From the NCBI RefSeq assembly GCF_029255285.1, contig NZ_JAPUVI010000025.1:1-64000 (forward strand): a stretch of 64,000 bases of DNA, read 5' to 3'. Below are positions 43,440-51,983 of this stretch, piece after piece (the first letter of the stretch is position 1; each line of letters opens with the position of its first letter). Made by a program: the position numbers and the translations under genes. Below the pieces are notes generated by a model. It made no database searches and was not told the DNA's origin. It saw only the letters and a program-made list of their open reading frames with translations. This DNA comes from Accumulibacter sp. Its GTDB lineage: Bacteria > Pseudomonadota > Gammaproteobacteria > Burkholderiales > Rhodocyclaceae.

Positions 43440-43853
43440 GTGGATTTGCCGTCGACCAAGCCTTATCTGATACGCGCCATTCACCAATGGTGCAGTGACA
43501 ACGGTTTCACCCCACATCTGGCCGTGGTGGTCGATGCCAAAACGCGCGTGCCCAAAGAGCACGTCCGTGATGGTCGAATTATCCTCAACGTCGGTTACGA
43601 AGCGACAGGCCATTTGACGATCGGCAACGACGTGATCACTTTTCAGGCGCGCTTCGGTGGTGTGGCACGCGACATATCCATCCCGATCGGCAGCGTCGCC
43701 GCGATCTACGCCCGCGAGAACGGTGCGGGAATGGCTTTCGAAGCGGGTGACGATTCCGCCGTCACGCCGGAGGAGGCGGATCCCGAAGCCGATCACGACG
43801 ACGGGCCGGAGCCGCCGCCAGCGGGCCGACCGAAACTGCAGCGCATCAAGTGA
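43440..43853 (+). CDS. sspB: SspB, ClpXP protease specificity adaptor
   Basis: The product (137 residues) delivers ssrA-tagged proteins to ClpXP. Core: STKPYLIRAIHQWCSDNGFTPH, LNVGYEATGHLTIGNDVITFQARFGG (in part), SIPIGSVAAIYARENGAGM. The C-terminal tail is acidic and ends PKLQRIK, the ClpX-binding peptide. It starts at GTG 43440, preceded by GAGGAAAT. A frame-shifted ATG at 43438 is not used. ClpS, the ClpA adaptor, is also encoded in this window. Confidence 0.94.
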   Translation: MDLPSTKPYLIRAIHQWCSDNGFTPHLAVVVDAKTRVPKEHVRDGRIILNVGYEATGHLTIGNDVITFQARFGGVARDISIPIGSVAAIYARENGAGMAFEAGDDSAVTPEEADPEADHDDGPEPPPAGRPKLQRIK

Positions 43854-43931
43854 CGACGCTGTGTACTGCCGGCTGGAGCGATCGACCGTTTAGGCCTGGC
43901 GAAGCGATGGAAGCGACGAGGTGTTCAAGAA

Positions 43932-45269
43932 ATGGAAGGGAAGGCTGGGGTCGTTGATCGACGGGAGTGCGATGTCCTGGTGATCGGCGGCGGGCCTGCC
44001 GGTTCGACAGTCGCGCCTTTGCTGGCCGAGAAAGCCTACCGCGTTGTGCTGCTCGAGAAAGCGCGCCATCCGCGCTTTCATATCGGCGAGTCGCTGTTGC
44101 CGGCCAATCTGCCGCTTTTCGAACGGCTCGGCATCGCCGCCGACGTCAAGGCGATCGGCATGGAGAAACGGGGCGCCGAGTTTGTTTCGCCACAACACCC
44201 CCAGCCGCAGACTTTCCACTTCGCGGAGGCCTGGGACAAGTCGATGCCCTACGCCTATCAGGTGAAACGTGCGGAGTTCGACAGCCTCCTGATCCGCAAT
44301 GCCGAGCGCCGGGGCGTCGAGGTCCATGAGGGATGCAAGGCAAGCACCATCGACTTCCGGCCCGACGGCAGCGTCGCGGTCGGCGCGCGCTACGAGGACG
44401 GCCGTGCGGTCGAATGGGTGGCCCGCTTCGTCGTCGATGCCTCCGGCCGTGACACCTTTCTCGCCAATCGCTTCCAGATCAAGAAACGCAATCCGAAACA
44501 CAACAGTTCGGCGGTCTATGGCCATTTCGCCGGTGCCCGACGAAACGAAGGACAGGCCGAAGGCCACATCACGATCTTCTGGTTCGAGCACGGCTGGTTC
44601 TGGTTTATCCCGCTGCTCGACGACGTAACCAGCATCGGCATGGTGACCTGGCCCTACTTCATGAAAACCCGAGGCCAGCGCAGTGTCGAACGCTTCCTGA
44701 TGGACGGCATCGCCAGTTGCCCGACGCTTGCCGCGCGGCTCGAAGGCGCCAAATTGATCAACCGGGTCGAGGCAACCGGAAACTTCTCGTATGTCGCGCA
44801 ACGCAACCACGGAGCGAACTATCTTCTGCTCGGCGACGCCTATGCCTTCATCGACCCGGTTTTTTCCTCCGGCGTGTTGCTGGCCATGAACAGCGGGCTA
44901 CTCGGCGCGGAAACCATCGACCGTTGCCTGCGCACACCGGCGGCAGCAGCCAGCGCACTGAAACGCTTCGACGAACTGATGAAGCACGGCCCCAAGCAGT
45001 TCTCTTGGTTTATCTACCGGGTGACCAATCCGATCATGCGCGACTTTTTCATGGGTCCGAAAAACGTCTTTCGCGTCAAGGAAGCGCTGCTTTCGGTGCT
45101 CGCCGGCGACATTTTCGGCACGACGCCGATCTGGCGTTCGATCCGCATCTTCAAACTGATCTACTACCTGGCCAATGCCGTCCAGCCTCGGCGTGCCTTT
45201 CGGGGCTGGCAACGCCGGCGCTTCAACATTCGCCAGGTCGAAGATGCGGCGTTGAAGTCCGCGCCGTGA
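43932..45269 (+). CDS. Halogenase-like FAD-dependent oxidoreductase
   Basis: The product (445 residues) has an N-terminal Rossmann dinucleotide motif DVLVIGGGPAGSTVAPLLAE and the halogenase-family start HPRFHIGESLLPANL. It also has the flavin motif DASGRDTFLANRF, GHFAGARR and the second FAD motif LLGDAYAFIDPVFSSGV. The tryptophan-halogenase fold is clear. The chloride-site signature W-x-W-x-I-P reads GWFWFIPLLDD, so halogenation is possible but not proven. Many relatives are pigment-pathway dehydrogenases. It heads an operon and overlaps the chorismatase gene (GTGA). Confidence 0.88.
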   Translation: MEGKAGVVDRRECDVLVIGGGPAGSTVAPLLAEKAYRVVLLEKARHPRFHIGESLLPANLPLFERLGIAADVKAIGMEKRGAEFVSPQHPQPQTFHFAEAWDKSMPYAYQVKRAEFDSLLIRNAERRGVEVHEGCKASTIDFRPDGSVAVGARYEDGRAVEWVARFVVDASGRDTFLANRFQIKKRNPKHNSSAVYGHFAGARRNEGQAEGHITIFWFEHGWFWFIPLLDDVTSIGMVTWPYFMKTRGQRSVERFLMDGIASCPTLAARLEGAKLINRVEATGNFSYVAQRNHGANYLLLGDAYAFIDPVFSSGVLLAMNSGLLGAETIDRCLRTPAAAASALKRFDELMKHGPKQFSWFIYRVTNPIMRDFFMGPKNVFRVKEALLSVLAGDIFGTTPIWRSIRIFKLIYYLANAVQPRRAFRGWQRRRFNIRQVEDAALKSAP

Positions 45270-46297
45270 GACTCCGTTTCCATTCGGACGTCTGTCGGCT
45301 GCGAGCCGTGGCGGGTATCGATCCGGCGGATGAAACGGTCCTCGGGGGCAGCCTGATCGGCTGTCCAACGATTGCCGAACCGCGGCCCCGCTGGCCGCGA
45401 CAGACACTCAATGCGCCACTGCTGGGCCATGACGCGGATTTCGTCGAAGAACACTGGCTTACCGATGGCGAATGTCTGTCCGGCGAGTTCGAGGGTATCT
45501 TCTACCGACGCAGCAGCGACGTTCTGTACGGCGTCATCGAAATCGACGAACGTACCTTTCCGGATTCCGCCGCCGGGACTGCGCTGCAGAGAGCAACCGC
45601 GGAAGCCTACGGCCGCATCTTTCGGCTGCTCGCCACACAGGGCCTGCCGCAGCTCTGGCGTGTCTGGAACTATCTGGCCGATATCAATCGCGAGACCGGG
45701 GGGCTGGAACGTTATCGGCAGTTCAACGTCGGGCGTTACGATGCTTTTCTGAGCTTCGCGCCGGGCGCCGCCGACGATGTTCCGGCTGCCTGTGCAATCG
45801 GCCTGCAACATGGCCCCTTAAGCATCGCCTTCATTGCCGGACGGACGCCGGCGAGACCCATCGAGAATCCACGACAAGTCAGTGCTTACCGCTATCCGGT
45901 CGAGTACGGGCCGCGCAGCCCGACTTTTTCGCGCGCCGTACTGGTTACCCTGCCGGAGCAGGAGAGTCTGTTCATTTCCGGAACGGCGAGCATCGTCGGC
46001 TACCGGACCGTTCACGCTGGAGATGTGGAAGCGCAATGCCGGGAAGCACTGGCCAACGTCGAGGCGCTGCTCGACGAGTCCGGGCACCTCTGCCGTTCGA
46101 CCGCCTTTACTCTGTCGGAACTGTCGTATCGGGTCTACGTCCGCCGGGCCGTCGATTACCCGGCCGTAAGAAGCATTTTGATGGAGCGCTTGGGCGAGAC
46201 TGCCGAGGCGGTTTTCATCGAAGCGGACATTTGCCGGCCTGACCTGCTGGTCGAAATCGAGGCGATGGCCTCGCATCCTCTGGAGGATTGTCGATGA
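45266..46297 (+). CDS. Chorismatase of the FkbO/Hyg5/XanB2 family (hydroxybenzoate synthase)
   Basis: The product (343 residues) has the chorismatase core: GVIEIDE, LWRVWNYLADINRETGGLERYRQFNVGRYDAF (in part), LQHGPLSIAFIAGRTPARPIENPRQVSAYRYP (in part) and YGPRSPTFSRA. Family members turn chorismate into 3-hydroxybenzoate or 4-hydroxybenzoate plus pyruvate (XanB2), or into dihydroxycyclohexadienoate (FkbO). XanB2 feeds xanthomonadin-type aryl polyenes. The GTG at 45266 overlaps the halogenase-like gene's stop codon. The long frame upstream lies inside that gene. The next gene overlaps by four bases too. Confidence 0.87.
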   Translation: MRLRFHSDVCRLRAVAGIDPADETVLGGSLIGCPTIAEPRPRWPRQTLNAPLLGHDADFVEEHWLTDGECLSGEFEGIFYRRSSDVLYGVIEIDERTFPDSAAGTALQRATAEAYGRIFRLLATQGLPQLWRVWNYLADINRETGGLERYRQFNVGRYDAFLSFAPGAADDVPAACAIGLQHGPLSIAFIAGRTPARPIENPRQVSAYRYPVEYGPRSPTFSRAVLVTLPEQESLFISGTASIVGYRTVHAGDVEAQCREALANVEALLDESGHLCRSTAFTLSELSYRVYVRRAVDYPAVRSILMERLGETAEAVFIEADICRPDLLVEIEAMASHPLEDCR

Positions 46298-47145
46298 CTG
46301 TAGCGCATTGGCGCCGCATCGGCGGCCTGACGGCAAGCGTGGCGATCGCCTGTGCCTCGCCGGCCGCCATGGCGGCCGAGGAAAAACCGCTGTGGGAACT
46401 GGGAGCCGGGGTGGCCGCGCTGAGTTTCCCGTACTATCGCGGCTCCGATCAAAGCAACAACTTCGTCATGCCTGTGCCGTACTTCGCTTATCACGGGGAT
46501 TTCTTCAAGGCGGACCGGCACGGCATTCGCGGCAGCTTTTTCGATTCCGACCGTATCGACTTCAGCGTCAGCCTGGCGCTGTCGCCACCTGGCAGCAGCG
46601 ACGACATCCGGGCGCGCTCCGGCATGCCCAACCTCGACGCGAGTTTCGAAATCGGCCCGCAGTTGGACCTCACCTTCTGGCGCTCCGAAAACCGTTCCCG
46701 CTTTCTCAAGCTGCTCTTGCCATTGCGTGCCGCCTTCACGGTCGAGAGTTCGCCCAGGGATATCGGCTGGGTTTTTCACCCGAAACTGAATATGGATATC
46801 ACCGACCTGCCGGGGCTGCCAGGCTGGCAGCTCGGCCTGTTGGCCGGCGTGGTTTTCGGCGACCAGCGACAGAATGCCTACTACTACACGGTGGCGCCAC
46901 AGTACGCGACGGCGGCACGTCCCGCCTATCAGGCCGGTGGCGGCTATGCCGGAACCCAGTATTTGGTGGCTATTTCGAAACGCTTTCCGAATTTCTGGCT
47001 CGGCGGTTTCGCGCGCTACGACAATCTCGGTGGCGCCACGTTCGACGATAGCCCTCTGCTCAGGCAAAAGGACTATTTTGCCGCCGGGCTGTCGGTGAGC
47101 TGGATTCTCGGGGAATCGTCCACCCGCGTGCGGGTCGATGACTGA
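46294..47145 (+). CDS. MipA/OmpV-family outer-membrane protein
   Basis: The product (283 residues) has a signal peptide ending near AMAAEEK, then a beta-barrel-like sequence with alternating hydrophobic residues. It starts WELGAGVAALSFPYYRGSDQS, a form typical of MipA/OmpV, and ends in a strand (FAAGLSVSWILG). The family forms outer-membrane barrels, some interacting with MltA. In this operon it may display or move the pathway's product to the outer membrane (inference). The ATG has AGGA upstream and overlaps the chorismatase stop codon. Confidence 0.85.
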   Translation: MTVAHWRRIGGLTASVAIACASPAAMAAEEKPLWELGAGVAALSFPYYRGSDQSNNFVMPVPYFAYHGDFFKADRHGIRGSFFDSDRIDFSVSLALSPPGSSDDIRARSGMPNLDASFEIGPQLDLTFWRSENRSRFLKLLLPLRAAFTVESSPRDIGWVFHPKLNMDITDLPGLPGWQLGLLAGVVFGDQRQNAYYYTVAPQYATAARPAYQAGGGYAGTQYLVAISKRFPNFWLGGFARYDNLGGATFDDSPLLRQKDYFAAGLSVSWILGESSTRVRVDD

Positions 47146-47935
47146 CTCGCCGGTCGGCAAGCTCCTATGGACAGCCTACGAACGTTTCGCCATGACGCTC
47201 GGGCTGGGCGCGCTGGCGTTGTGCTGTCTGGCCTGGTGGCCGTTTGCGCTGCTGCTCAATCCCTTGTTGCCACGGCGCCTTGGCCGGCCACTCGGGCGTT
47301 ACGTGGCGCGTCTTGGTTTCCGCGGCTACCTCGGCTTCCTCAGCCTATTGTGTGCCTGCCGTTTCGACCTCGCCGAACTCGATCGGCTGCGCCATGATGA
47401 GCCCTTGGTGCTGGCCGCCAACCATCCTTCGCTGCTCGACGCGCTGCTCGTTCTCTCGCGCGTCCCCGATACGGCCTGCGTGATGAAGGCGGACCTGATG
47501 GACAATCTGTTGTTCGGCGCCGCCGCGCGTCTGGCGGGCTTCATCCGTAACGACACAGCGCTGGCCATGATCCTCGACGCCGGCGATGAACTCGCGCGCG
47601 GTGCCCACCTGCTGATTTTTCCCGAGGGCACCCGGACACCCGTTTTCCCGATCGCGCCCTGCCTGCCGACCGCAGGCCTGATCGCCCGCCGCAGCCAGGT
47701 GGCGGTACAGACCCTGCTGATCGAGTTCTCGACCCCCTATCTCGGCAAGCAATGGCCCTTGTTCAGGCGGCCGGTCCTGCCCTTGCACTGCCGCGTTCGC
47801 CTGGGGCGCCGCTTTCCTCCACCAGACGACGTGATCGCCTTCAGCACCGAACTCGAAAGCTACTTTCGCGCCCAACTCGGCCAGCCCTTACCTGTTTCCG
47901 GCCTGGGCCTGCCGCACGCCCACCGCGTGCACTGA
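47138..47935 (+). CDS. Lysophospholipid acyltransferase-family protein (PlsC-like)
   Basis: The product (265 residues) has an N-terminal hydrophobic region (about 20-80), the acyltransferase motif NHPSLLD (N-H-x4-D) and the phosphate-binding FPEGTR. It transfers an acyl chain to an unknown acceptor. In aryl polyene clusters, acyltransferases of this kind anchor the pigment to a lipid. It overlaps MipA by eight bases and precedes the glycosyltransferase by 20 bp. Confidence 0.87.
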   Translation: MTDSPVGKLLWTAYERFAMTLGLGALALCCLAWWPFALLLNPLLPRRLGRPLGRYVARLGFRGYLGFLSLLCACRFDLAELDRLRHDEPLVLAANHPSLLDALLVLSRVPDTACVMKADLMDNLLFGAAARLAGFIRNDTALAMILDAGDELARGAHLLIFPEGTRTPVFPIAPCLPTAGLIARRSQVAVQTLLIEFSTPYLGKQWPLFRRPVLPLHCRVRLGRRFPPPDDVIAFSTELESYFRAQLGQPLPVSGLGLPHAHRVH

Positions 47936-47955
47936 CGATCCGCCAAGTCCGCGCC

Positions 47956-48726
47956 ATGCCGCCTGCTTCGTCCACCCACCTGGTCATCATCCCGAGCTAC
48001 AACCCGGGTGCCCAGGTCGTCGACACGGTTCGCGCCGCATTGGCTTGCTGGGCGCCGGTATGGGTGGTCGTCGACGGCAGTACGGACGACAGCGTCGCCA
48101 GCTTGCGGGATCTCGCCCAGACCAATGACGGATTGCGCGTCATCGAGTTGCCCGAAAACCGTGGCAAAGGCGCCGCGGTGCTCGAGGGAATCAGTCAGGC
48201 ACGGGCGCTTGGCTTCACGCATGCGCTGACGATGGATTCCGATGGCCAGCATCCGGCCGACCTGATCCCCGCCTTCATGGCCGAATCGCTGGCGCGCCCC
48301 GATGCCATGATCCTCGGCAAGCCGGTTTTCGCGGCCGACGCCCCGGCGCTGCGCGTCAACGGCCGCAGGATTTCGAACGGCTGGGCGAATCTCGAAACGC
48401 TGTGGATGGGGATCGGCGATTCGCTGTACGGTTTTCGTGTCTACCCGATCGAACCGCTGCAGCGCGTCATGCGCGCCAACCGCTGGATGCGGCGCTTCGA
48501 TTTCGATCCCGAAGCGGTGGTTCGCCTGTGCTGGGCGGGCGTACCGCCGCTCAACCGCGCCGCGCCGGTGCGCTACCTGCGGCCCGAAGAGGGTGGCGTC
48601 TCGCATTTCCGCTACCTGCGCGACAACACTCTGTTGACCTGGATGCACGCTCGGCTGTTTATCGGTTTCCTGCTTCGCTTACCCGTTCTGCTCACCAAGC
48701 GGCTGGCCGCCCGCTCTCCCGTCTAG
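47956..48726 (+). CDS. Family 2 glycosyltransferase
   Basis: The product (256 residues) has the GT-A fold: HLVIIPSYNPGAQVVDTV, VVDGSTDDSVASL, NRGKGAAVLEGI, and the DxD-type TMDSDGQHPADLIP. A later amphipathic or membrane-associated tail lies at LFIGFLLRLPVLLTKRL. It is a dolichol-phosphate-mannose-synthase-like GT2. It would transfer a sugar to a lipid or aryl acceptor. The ATG at 47956 fits the family. The frame upstream is in the acyltransferase gene. It belongs to the same operon. Confidence 0.88.
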   Translation: MPPASSTHLVIIPSYNPGAQVVDTVRAALACWAPVWVVVDGSTDDSVASLRDLAQTNDGLRVIELPENRGKGAAVLEGISQARALGFTHALTMDSDGQHPADLIPAFMAESLARPDAMILGKPVFAADAPALRVNGRRISNGWANLETLWMGIGDSLYGFRVYPIEPLQRVMRANRWMRRFDFDPEAVVRLCWAGVPPLNRAAPVRYLRPEEGGVSHFRYLRDNTLLTWMHARLFIGFLLRLPVLLTKRLAARSPV

Positions 48727-48743
48727 TCCCTGTGCCAGCCGCG

Positions 48744-49949
48744 ATGACGATGAACACGACCGAGATCTTCCTGATCGCCATGGCGATCATCTTCTCGCTG
48801 CCTTGGCTGATCTGGCGAGCCGGCCGCACCGACTACTACGCGCCGCTGGTGGTCGTCCAGATCCTTACCGGGATTGCCCTTGGACCCGGCGTTCTCGGGC
48901 GTTTCTACCCCGATTACTACGCGTTCGTGTTCACCCCCGCGGTGGTTCAGTCGCTCAACGGCATCGCCTGGTGGGCGGTCATGCTGTTCGTCATGATTGC
49001 CGGCATTGAACTGGATCTCCGACAGGCCTGGGTGCATCGTCGCGAAAGCAGCATCACCGCCGGGCTGGCACTCGGCACGCCGCTTCTTTTCGGCTGCCTG
49101 GCTGCCAGTCTGCTGTTGTTTCACGACGGGTGGATCGGGCGACGCGCGCTGACCTGGCAATTCGTTCTCGGCGTCGGCATGGCCTGTTCGGTAACTGCGC
49201 TGCCGATCCTGATTCTGCTCATGGAGAAGCTGGCCATCCTGCGTCAGCCGATCGGCCAGCGCATCCTGCGCTACGCCAGCCTCGACGACATCGCAATCTG
49301 GGGTGTCCTGGCGCTGATCCTGATGGACTGGGGCCGGGTTGGCAAACAACTCGCTTTCCTGCTGGTTTTCGCCTTGCTCGGCTACGCTTTCCGGGCCTTG
49401 ATGCGGCGCCTGACGGATCGCGACCGCTGGCATGTGGCGCTGATCTGGCTGGCCGTCTGTTCGTTCGGCGCCGACTGGGCGGGCCTGCACTTCATGGTCG
49501 GCGCCTTCCTGGCCGGAGCGATCATCGACACCGAGTGGTTCGATCAACGGCGCATGGATTTGCTACGTCATCATGTTCTGCTGGTCGCGATGCCGGTTTT
49601 TTTTCTCAGCACGGGCTTGCGGACGACCTGGACGCTCGGCGGCGAAGCCGTCTTCACCGCCGCCGGCCTGCTGCTCATCGCGGCGGTCGGCGGCAAGTTG
49701 CTCGGCACGCGGATTGCCGGTCAACTGCTCGGCTGGCCTCCCGGCGAGGCCAGCCTGATCGGCTGGCTACTGCAGACCAAGGCGCTGATCATGATCATCT
49801 TTGCCAACATTCTGCTCGACAAGGATCTCATCAGCAGCGAAACCTTCACCGCGCTGCTGTTGATGGCCGTGGTCAGCACCATGCTCACCGTGCCGGTCGT
49901 CGCCCCCAAGCTTAAACGTTGGCAGGAACTCGTCGGCCGCCACCGGTAA
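48744..49949 (+). CDS. CPA2-type cation/proton antiporter (KefB/NapA-like)
   Basis: The product (401 residues) has about twelve helices and the antiporter-type segment LNGIAWWAVMLFVMIAGIELDLR, with the pattern VTALPILILLMEKL. A charged pair is likely buried in the core (LDDIAIWG). It starts 17 bp after the glycosyltransferase gene, so is probably part of the operon. It lacks the KTN ion-gating domain of KefB/C. Its job in the operon is unknown. Confidence 0.83.
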   Translation: MTMNTTEIFLIAMAIIFSLPWLIWRAGRTDYYAPLVVVQILTGIALGPGVLGRFYPDYYAFVFTPAVVQSLNGIAWWAVMLFVMIAGIELDLRQAWVHRRESSITAGLALGTPLLFGCLAASLLLFHDGWIGRRALTWQFVLGVGMACSVTALPILILLMEKLAILRQPIGQRILRYASLDDIAIWGVLALILMDWGRVGKQLAFLLVFALLGYAFRALMRRLTDRDRWHVALIWLAVCSFGADWAGLHFMVGAFLAGAIIDTEWFDQRRMDLLRHHVLLVAMPVFFLSTGLRTTWTLGGEAVFTAAGLLLIAAVGGKLLGTRIAGQLLGWPPGEASLIGWLLQTKALIMIIFANILLDKDLISSETFTALLLMAVVSTMLTVPVVAPKLKRWQELVGRHR

Positions 49950-50028
49950 TCGCACCGCGTCGGCGTCCACTCGGTTACGACCTGAGGCATGTCAGCCTTG
50001 GGCCGGCGGTGGCTCCGCCCTGTACGGT

Positions 50029-51342
50029 TCAGCCGTCGACGCGATACTCTGCCGAGCGGGCGTGCGCTGACAGTCCTTCGCCACGCGCCAGCGTCGCCGC
50101 GATCCGACCAAGAGTCTTGGCCCCCGCCTGCGAGACGCGGATCAGGCTGGTCCGCTTCTGGAAATCGTAGACCCCGAGCGGTGAAGAAAAACGGGCGCTG
50201 CCGGAAGTCGGCAGGACGTGGTTCGGCCCCGCACAATAGTCACCGAGCGACTCCGAAGTATGGCGTCCGATGAAGATCGCGCCAGCATGGCGGATTTTCG
50301 TCACCCAGTCTTCGGCATCGACCAGCGAGAGTTCCAGGTGTTCGGGAGCGATGCGGTTGGCGATACGGCAGGCCTCGTCGAGATCGCGGACTTCAATAAG
50401 CGCACCGCGGTTTTCCAGCGCAGTACGGATGACTTGCCGGCGTGGCATCGTTGGCAGGAGACTGTCGAGGCAAGCGGCGACGCGCTCGATATAGGCGGCG
50501 TCGGGGCAGATCAGAATGGACTGGGCGAGTTCGTCGTGCTCGGCCTGCGAGAACAGATCCATTGCCACCCACTCGGGGTCCGTTTGTCCGTCGCAGATCA
50601 CCAGGATCTCGGACGGTCCGGCGACCATGTCGATGCCCACGACACCGAAGACACGGCGCTTCGCGGCGGCGACGTAGGCGTTGCCGGGACCGACGATCTT
50701 GTCTACCTGCGGAATCGTCTGCGTGCCATAAGCCAGGGCGGCGATCGCCTGCGCGCCCCCGACGGTGAACACGCGGTCGACGCCGGCCAAGGCCGCCGCG
50801 GCAAGAACCAATGGGTTGTGCTCGCCGGCCGGCGTCGGCACGACCATGATCAATTCCCCGACTCCGGCGACACCTGCCGGAATGGCGTTCATCAGCACGG
50901 ACGAAGGATAGGAAGCCTTGCCGCCGGGGACGTAGAGTCCGACGCGGTCGAGCGCCGTCACTTGCTGGCCGAGCATCGTTCCGCAGCCGTCGTCACCGTC
51001 GTCCTGATAGTGCCAGCTTTGCAGCGTCTGTCGCTCGTGATAGCGTCGCACCCGGCTGGCCGCCGCTTCGAGCGCCCGGCGCTGATCCGTGGGCAAAGCC
51101 GTCAGCGCCGCGTGCAGCGCCGGTGGCGCAATTTCCAAGTCGGCCATCGAACTGGGAGAGAGACCGTCGAAGCGGCGTGTGTACTCGATCAGCGCGGCGT
51201 CGCCGCGTGCCTTGACGTCGGCCAGAATGGCGGCAACCGTGCGCTCCACCGCCTCGTCCTGCGTCGCCTCGAAAGCCAGCAGCGAGTCGAGCCGCGGCTC
51301 GAAATCGGCGTCGGTTGTGGAAAGTCGCGAGATCCGGATCAT
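50029..51342 (-). CDS. hisD: HisD, histidinol dehydrogenase
   Basis: Last step of histidine synthesis: oxidises L-histidinol to L-histidine in two NAD+-dependent steps. The 437-residue product contains [57 protein letters not shown], the metal-binding [13 protein letters not shown] and the C-terminal [17 protein letters not shown]. The ATG overlaps the hisG stop codon (ATGA). A longer frame runs through hisG and is not real. Confidence 0.97.
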
Positions 51343-51983
51343 TGGTGCACCAGTTCGGCAATGGCGTCGAGGATCGGCGCCAGTAGTTTGCGTTTCAGCT
51401 TGAGGGCGGCCTGATTGACAATCAGGCGCGACGAAATGTCCATGACGTGCTCGACGGCGACCAGATGGTTCGCCTTCAGGGTGCTGCCAGTGGATACCAG
51501 ATCGACGATGGCGTCGGCGAGACCGGCCAGCGGCGCCAGTTCCATCGACCCGTAGAGCTTGATCAGGTCGACATGCACTCCCTTGGCGGCGAAGTGCTCG
51601 CGGGCGATATTGACATACTTGCTGGCCACTTTCAGGCGGGCTCCCTGGCGCACCGCGCTGGCGTAGTCGAAACCGTCGGGCACCGCGACCATCATCCGGC
51701 ATTTGGCGATCTTCAGATCGATCGGCTGATACAGACCGGCGCTGCCGTGCTCAAGCAGAATGTCCTTGCCCGCGACACCGAGATCGGCGGCGCCGTACTG
51801 CACATAGGTCGGCGCGTCGGTGGCACGGACAATGACCAGGCGCACGTCGGCCCGCGTGGTCGGGATGATCAGCCGACGCGAGGCCTCGGGATCCTCGAGC
51901 GGTTCGATTCCGGCCGCCGCCAGCAGCGGCATGGTTTCCGAAAAAATGCGGCCCTTCGAGAGCGCGATGGTGATGCCGTTCAC
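51339..51983 (-). CDS. hisG: HisG, ATP phosphoribosyltransferase (short form)
   Basis: Commits PRPP and ATP to histidine synthesis. The 214-residue short-form enzyme has [19 protein letters not shown], the PRPP-loop [35 protein letters not shown] and [10 protein letters not shown]. Short-form HisG needs a HisZ regulator, which I do not see here. It starts with GTG preceded by AGGAA. A candidate -10 (TAGAAT at 52018-52013 on the minus strand) lies upstream. Confidence 0.96.

Follow-up and report, generated by a model that had tools for sequence, protein, structure and literature searches.

A chorismatase operon of Accumulibacter sp. as the probable half of an aryl-polyene locus encoded at two sites

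Layout and gene families of the operon

We analyzed a stretch of 64,000 nucleotides (the window; G000:C25:1-64000, contig NZ_JAPUVI010000025.1 of assembly GCF_029255285.1) from Accumulibacter sp., whose genome comprises 4.19 Mb in 113 contigs. The subject is a chorismatase operon of six genes at positions 43932-49949, named here after their counterparts among the arc genes of Azoarcus sp. BH72. The genes, with family matches and E values, are as follows.

43932..45269, + strand: arcA-like flavoprotein resembling FADH2-dependent halogenases, 445 amino acids, ATG start (Trp_halogenase PF04820, 7.3e-34)
45266..46297, + strand: arcB/xanB2-like chorismatase, 343 amino acids, GTG start (FkbO/Hyg5-like PF21168, 7.3e-36; TIGR04444, 4.5e-71)
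46294..47145, + strand: arcC-like outer-membrane protein of the MipA/OmpV type, ATG start (PF06629, 8.8e-40)
47138..47935, + strand: arcD-like acyltransferase of the PlsC type, ATG start (Acyltransferase PF01553, 2.2e-11)
47956..48726, + strand: arcE-like family 2 glycosyltransferase (GT2), ATG start (Glycos_transf_2 PF00535, 1.8e-18)
48744..49949, + strand: arcG-like Na+/H+ antiporter of the CPA2 type, ATG start (Na_H_Exchanger PF00999, 1.1e-28; TIGR00932, 8.1e-20, with a score below the family cut-off)

All six genes are intact, with zero internal stops, and neighbors are joined by a stop-start overlap or separated by at most 20 bases. The chorismatase start overlaps the stop of the halogenase-like gene as GTGA, the start of the MipA gene overlaps the chorismatase stop as ATGA, and the PlsC-type gene overlaps the MipA gene by 8 bases; gaps of 20 and 17 bases precede the GT2 and antiporter genes respectively. 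An initial annotation, made from the sequence of the window, had described six overlapping or nearly touching genes of these families and had connected them with xanthomonadin/aryl-polyene clusters. Its coordinates hold, with every reading frame intact, its families agree with Pfam and NCBIfam, and the connection to these clusters stands. A promoter scan returned 0 promoter-like sites, and a terminator scan returned 8 terminator-like sites vs 5.8 (sd 2.3) in shuffled sequences.

The operon has relatives in other genomes of our survey, which covered 150 genomes including the one studied here. Its GT2 has homologs of 84-86% identity in three genomes of the same genus, and copies of the antiporter with 80-86% identity occupy the same place in G009, G012, G026 and G088. 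The chorismatase is 63% identical to the copies in G009, G012 and G026, where its operon neighbors reach 76-86%; the corresponding values in G002 are 57% vs 75-77%.

The chorismatase scores 123.3 bits against PF21168 (cut-off 27) and aligns to the Hyg5-type structure 5ag3 with an E value of 1.9e-50. Its Glu333, Cys326 and Gly242, numbered from position 45257 (the GTG start at 45266 gives numbers lower by 3), take the places of Hyg5 Glu334, Cys327 and Gly240. The best solved-structure matches of the flavoprotein are the halogenases 8zop, 3e1t and 7fco; its score for NF033113 (CmlS) is 204 bits, under the cut-off of 900. Across the 21 sequences compared, which include the window's and each have 200 or more matched residues, the motif W..W.IP at 222-227 and Lys79 are invariant. 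We take this motif and the active-site Lys to be marks of flavin-dependent halogenases, and by this motif test the flavoprotein is a candidate halogenase.

The polyene genes on contig C48

The initial annotation had found no genes of the polyketide or fatty acid synthase type in the window. It had proposed that these lie elsewhere or that the operon makes a small lipid of its own, and it had named a genome-wide search for ketosynthase (KS) and acyl carrier protein (ACP) genes as the way to decide. We searched the genome with profiles and obtained eight matches to ketosynthases (PF00109) and seven to carrier proteins (PF00550). None of either falls on contig C25, so the reported absence is correct for the window. 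Contig C48 of the same genome carries two KS genes, 9 kb apart, and two ACP genes, together with a chain-length-factor (CLF)-like protein (PF13723). The missing genes thus do lie elsewhere, and the APE cluster beyond a synteny break, which the annotation had named as evidence against its own lipid proposal, was looked for and found.

The C48 locus extends over G000:C48:2.9-15.7 kb, and 15 proteins of this contig were scanned with profiles. The genes run in one direction in the order ACP, KS, ACP, a 223-amino-acid protein, an AMP-binding ligase, a FabA/ApeI-like dehydratase, an LPLAT acyltransferase (Lip_A_acyltrans), LolA_3, MMPL, a polysaccharide deacetylase, a methyltransferase, a second KS, the CLF-like Ketoacyl-synt_2 protein, a 150-amino-acid protein and a FabG-type short-chain dehydrogenase/reductase. 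The dehydratase lies above the cut-off for PF07977 and below that for PF22818. The 223-amino-acid protein, which is presumably COG4648-like and is labeled so here, has zero Pfam matches, as has the 150-amino-acid protein in the ArcI dehydratase position. C48 contains no chorismatase, the only match in the whole genome being the window's gene, and it has no match to the window-type GT2. Elsewhere in the genome this GT2 gives short matches (35-41% identity), on C24 and C89. Because the window has both of these genes and C48 has neither, the two loci are complementary and can be read as one pathway.

Together, these results make it very probable that the operon is arcABCDE-G, the starter-synthesis and tailoring/anchoring half of an APE locus of the xanthomonadin/arcuflavin type, a type whose product is a yellow pigment of the membrane. 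This assignment, made at the level of sequence, draws on gene content, gene order, the complementarity of the two loci and their co-occurrence in other genomes; the suggested chemistry of the product is drawn from homologs. By analogy with XanB2 and ArcB, the chorismatase would convert chorismate to 3-hydroxybenzoate (3-HBA), which the AMP-ligase from C48 would load onto an ACP. Judged by family roles, the ketosynthases with the chain-length factor, the FabG-type reductase and the hotdog dehydratases would then build the polyene. The halogenase-like flavoprotein and the methyltransferase may alter the ring. A glycolipid anchor may be made or attached by the GT2, the polysaccharide deacetylase and the two acyltransferases (PlsC and LPLAT). 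Transport to the outer membrane would fall to MMPL and the LolA-like protein, perhaps with MipA, and some supporting role may belong to the antiporter. A break of the locus between arcG and arcH would leave a single pathway encoded at two sites. The operon is not a new ketosynthase-free pathway; it is a known pathway type in a further genome and as such a largely ordinary finding.

Co-occurrence of the two loci and alternative explanations

Next we consider the distribution of the two halves. The genomes of the survey are not independent, and their relatedness was left uncorrected in all counts. The chorismatase occurs in 28/150 genomes, a count that includes weak matches in G123 and G128 and a partial one at a contig end in G056; the C48 AMP-ligase occurs in 29/150, and 26 genomes have both (Fisher test, 1.4e-23, kinship ignored). 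The two genes are at most 23 kb apart in 14 of the 26 and lie on different contigs in nine. The remaining three have them on one contig, separated by 115 kb (G068, a one-contig genome), 721 kb (G009, also one contig and of the same genus) and 4.07 Mb; the last distance shrinks to 381 kb if the 4.45 Mb contig concerned is circular. Among the matches listed, the C48 ketosynthase has homologs of at least 54% identity in 16 genomes, all of which possess the chorismatase; the other listed matches are at most 50% identical and were taken to be FabF and other paralogs. A comparison of gene order in relatives, also suggested by the initial annotation, showed both halves side by side in several of them: in L073, L074, L076, L077, L089/L090, L095/L096, G086 and G088 the halves adjoin and converge, and the order is kept where a gene is present.

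Several observations weigh against this assignment. The TIGR04444 score of the chorismatase is 239.7 bits, under the curated cut-off of 325. The residues that PMC7170507 names for CH-II enzymes are a catalytic Glu and the signature Gly, Gly, Cys (164, 231, 318 when numbered on Nat-Hyg5). The window's enzyme has Ala, Gly, Cys (Ala180) and so departs from the CH-II (Hyg5) signature. The first of these positions is Ala in 31 of 40 sequences (the window's included), Thr in three, all copies from the same genus, and Gly in six, all from Bacteroidetes/Bacteroidales. Because of the low TIGR04444 score and the Ala in place of the CH-II Gly, the ratio of 3-HBA to 4-hydroxybenzoate (4-HBA) is not predictable; the account of chorismatases in PMC3949708 likewise holds that their product cannot be accurately predicted from an alignment. 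Among the matches listed, a C48-type ketosynthase of at least 54% identity is missing from 12 of the 28 genomes that have the chorismatase. The ligase occurs with no chorismatase match in G004, G100 and G111, and the chorismatase with no ligase in G090 and G128, the match in G128 being weak. The genes are arranged differently in G038, G040, G134 and G122. Finally, likeness to the Azoarcus arc proteins was judged by family and order, from Table 1 of PMC3949708.

Two of these genomes are described further. G004, from the same genus, has most of the C48-type genes on its contig C127 (L130), with a ligase of 73% identity. It has no match to the first ACP, the COG4648-like protein, the first KS or the methyltransferase within 20 kb, and no chorismatase genome-wide; the cluster is perhaps decaying or differently fed. 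In G090 the chorismatase (G090:C98:4499-5371, L117) has just a weak dehydratase match (31-38%) alongside it in 15 kb. This genome has neither a UbiC nor a C48-type AMP-ligase match, and its chorismatase may serve ubiquinone instead.

We considered whether the operon alone could make a small acylated, glycosylated hydroxybenzoate lipid with no polyene, which the initial annotation had proposed as a novel product. The compactness of the operon and the lack of KS and ACP genes on C25 speak for such a pathway. Against it stand the APE assembly line in the same genome, the contiguity of both halves in several relatives, and the C48-type AMP-ligase in 18/18 of the searched genomes in which chorismatase, acyltransferase and GT2 were seen. 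We rejected this pathway, whose probability we regard as minimal, since the genome does contain polyene genes and these co-occur with the operon. Thus the families, the aryl-polyene link and the location of the missing genes elsewhere survive from the initial interpretation, and the polyene-free lipid does not. It is also very improbable that the chorismatase chiefly supplies 4-HBA to ubiquinone and that its neighbors are unrelated. XanB2 feeds both pathways in Xanthomonas according to PMC3949708, and UbiC matches are lacking in G038, G090, G112, G113, G122 and G128, six of the 28 genomes with the chorismatase, so that a second role is possible there. The genome studied here, though, has a UbiC of its own (G000:C88:2545-3021, PF04345, E 2.7e-24), and 114/150 genomes of the survey have a UbiC. 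Its chorismatase is therefore unneeded for ubiquinone, and we rejected ubiquinone supply as its sole role here; the chorismatase moreover tracks the polyene AMP-ligase (26 shared of 28 and 29).

A further alternative is that the product is arcuflavin proper, in which the polyene forms an ester with a dialkylresorcinol (DAR). Gene content and order fit the arc loci. DarB, which we take to be a member of the KAS III-type (PF08541) family, has no visible candidate: the genome's sole KAS III-type protein is encoded on C23, with a FabF-like gene about 2 kb away. If DarB does belong to this family, the lack of a candidate weakly suggests a product other than a resorcinol ester, and we consider arcuflavin itself unlikely. 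An APE pathway split between C25 and C48 remains the preferred explanation.

With regard to its genomic site, the operon is flanked in the window by sspB and hisD (43440-51414). We found no conserved chromosomal site for it: no blastn match above 120 bases linked the flanks to those in G002 (upstream only), G009, G012, G026 or G088. Within the genus set of 28 genomes (own included), sspB has a match in 26/28 and hisD in 28/28. In G020 (C100:39191-41148) the two genes are convergent, about 170 bases apart, with no operon between them, and this genome has neither a chorismatase nor an AMP-ligase match. This arrangement is possibly an empty site or a loss, a single case being not enough to tell; other genomes with both genes have them far apart or on separate contigs.

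A side observation concerns a B12-binding radical SAM protein (HpnJ/BchE-like) at L089:3795-5441, whose homologs in G002, G009, G012, G026 and G079 precede the operon. In several relatives its gene stands directly 5' of a gene of the arcA or arcB type, and in G088 one small gene intervenes. The protein falls below the cut-off in all 25 of its NCBIfam matches. It occurs in 11/150 genomes, 10 of which have the chorismatase (Fisher test, 1e-7); the genome studied here has no match at a threshold of 1e-120. The gene is missing from the arc gene table of PMC3949708.

Comparison with known aryl-polyene systems

The closest likeness is to Azoarcus sp. BH72, as its genes are tabulated in PMC3949708. 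There arcA (halogenase), arcB (chorismatase/XanB2), arcC (MltA-interacting protein), arcD (acyltransferase) and arcE (glycosyl transferase) are followed by arcF (N-acetyl-gamma-glutamyl-phosphate reductase), arcG (Na/H antiporter), arcH (reductase), arcI (dehydratase), arcJ (with an N-terminal beta-ketoacyl synthase domain), arcK (ketosynthase) and arcL. An unlinked locus holds arcM (methyltransferase), arcN (deacetylase), arcP (exporter), arcQ (lolA), arcR (acyltransferase), arcS (dehydratase), arcT (AMP-ligase) and arcV (ACP). The same source reports that the BH72 pigment is arcuflavin, that ArcB yielded 3-HBA, and that insertions in arcK or arcT, one in each of the unlinked loci, gave colorless cells.

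Set against that table, the window's operon matches arcA-E and arcG one-to-one by family and order, and arcH-K, arcM, arcN, arcP-T and arcV have counterparts by family on C48. Both genomes split the pathway over two unlinked loci, but the break falls between arcG and arcH in the window's genome and in G009, and after arcL in BH72. G052 resembles BH72, with chorismatase, GT2, FabG, CLF and the second KS together and the ligase distant. In addition, the window lacks the arcF that BH72 has between GT2 and antiporter, and the genome shows no sign of DarB, its only KAS III-type protein lying near fab genes.

We hold a more tentative proposal to be possible although doubtful. The arc pathway in this bacterial order may consist of separable modules. 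Its starter/anchoring module arcA-G would have been cut off from the polyene genes in the genus studied here, in an event separate from the different split in BH72 and G052, and some genomes would have gained the radical SAM protein directly 5' of it. On this view the product of the window's organism would differ from arcuflavin, being a halogenated aryl-polyene glycolipid that is DAR-free. A 'ketosynthase-less' operon with a chorismatase is best interpreted alongside the rest of the genome, since the parts of such a pathway can lie apart. The survey also adds to the genomes that carry arc-type genes, brings a break point that differs from BH72, and offers, going by family names, a candidate gene set for probing GT2, PlsC, MipA and the antiporter in pigment anchoring.

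The xanthomonadin cluster of Xanthomonas (XanB2) would be similar in principle, with a chorismatase-derived 3-HBA starter and type II fatty-acid-synthase-like assembly, as outlined in PMC3949708. The APE-Ec cluster of E. coli CFT073 uses 4-HBA as its starter. Its gene table in PMC8253772 lacks a chorismatase, a halogenase-like flavoprotein, MipA and an antiporter, all of which the window has; a single gene, apeJ, is annotated there as glycosyltransferase/acyltransferase. The classes that APE-Ec shares with the two loci are two ACPs, KS, ketoreductase, dehydratases, ligase, LolA-like protein, RND/MMPL exporter, acyltransferases and glycosyltransferase.

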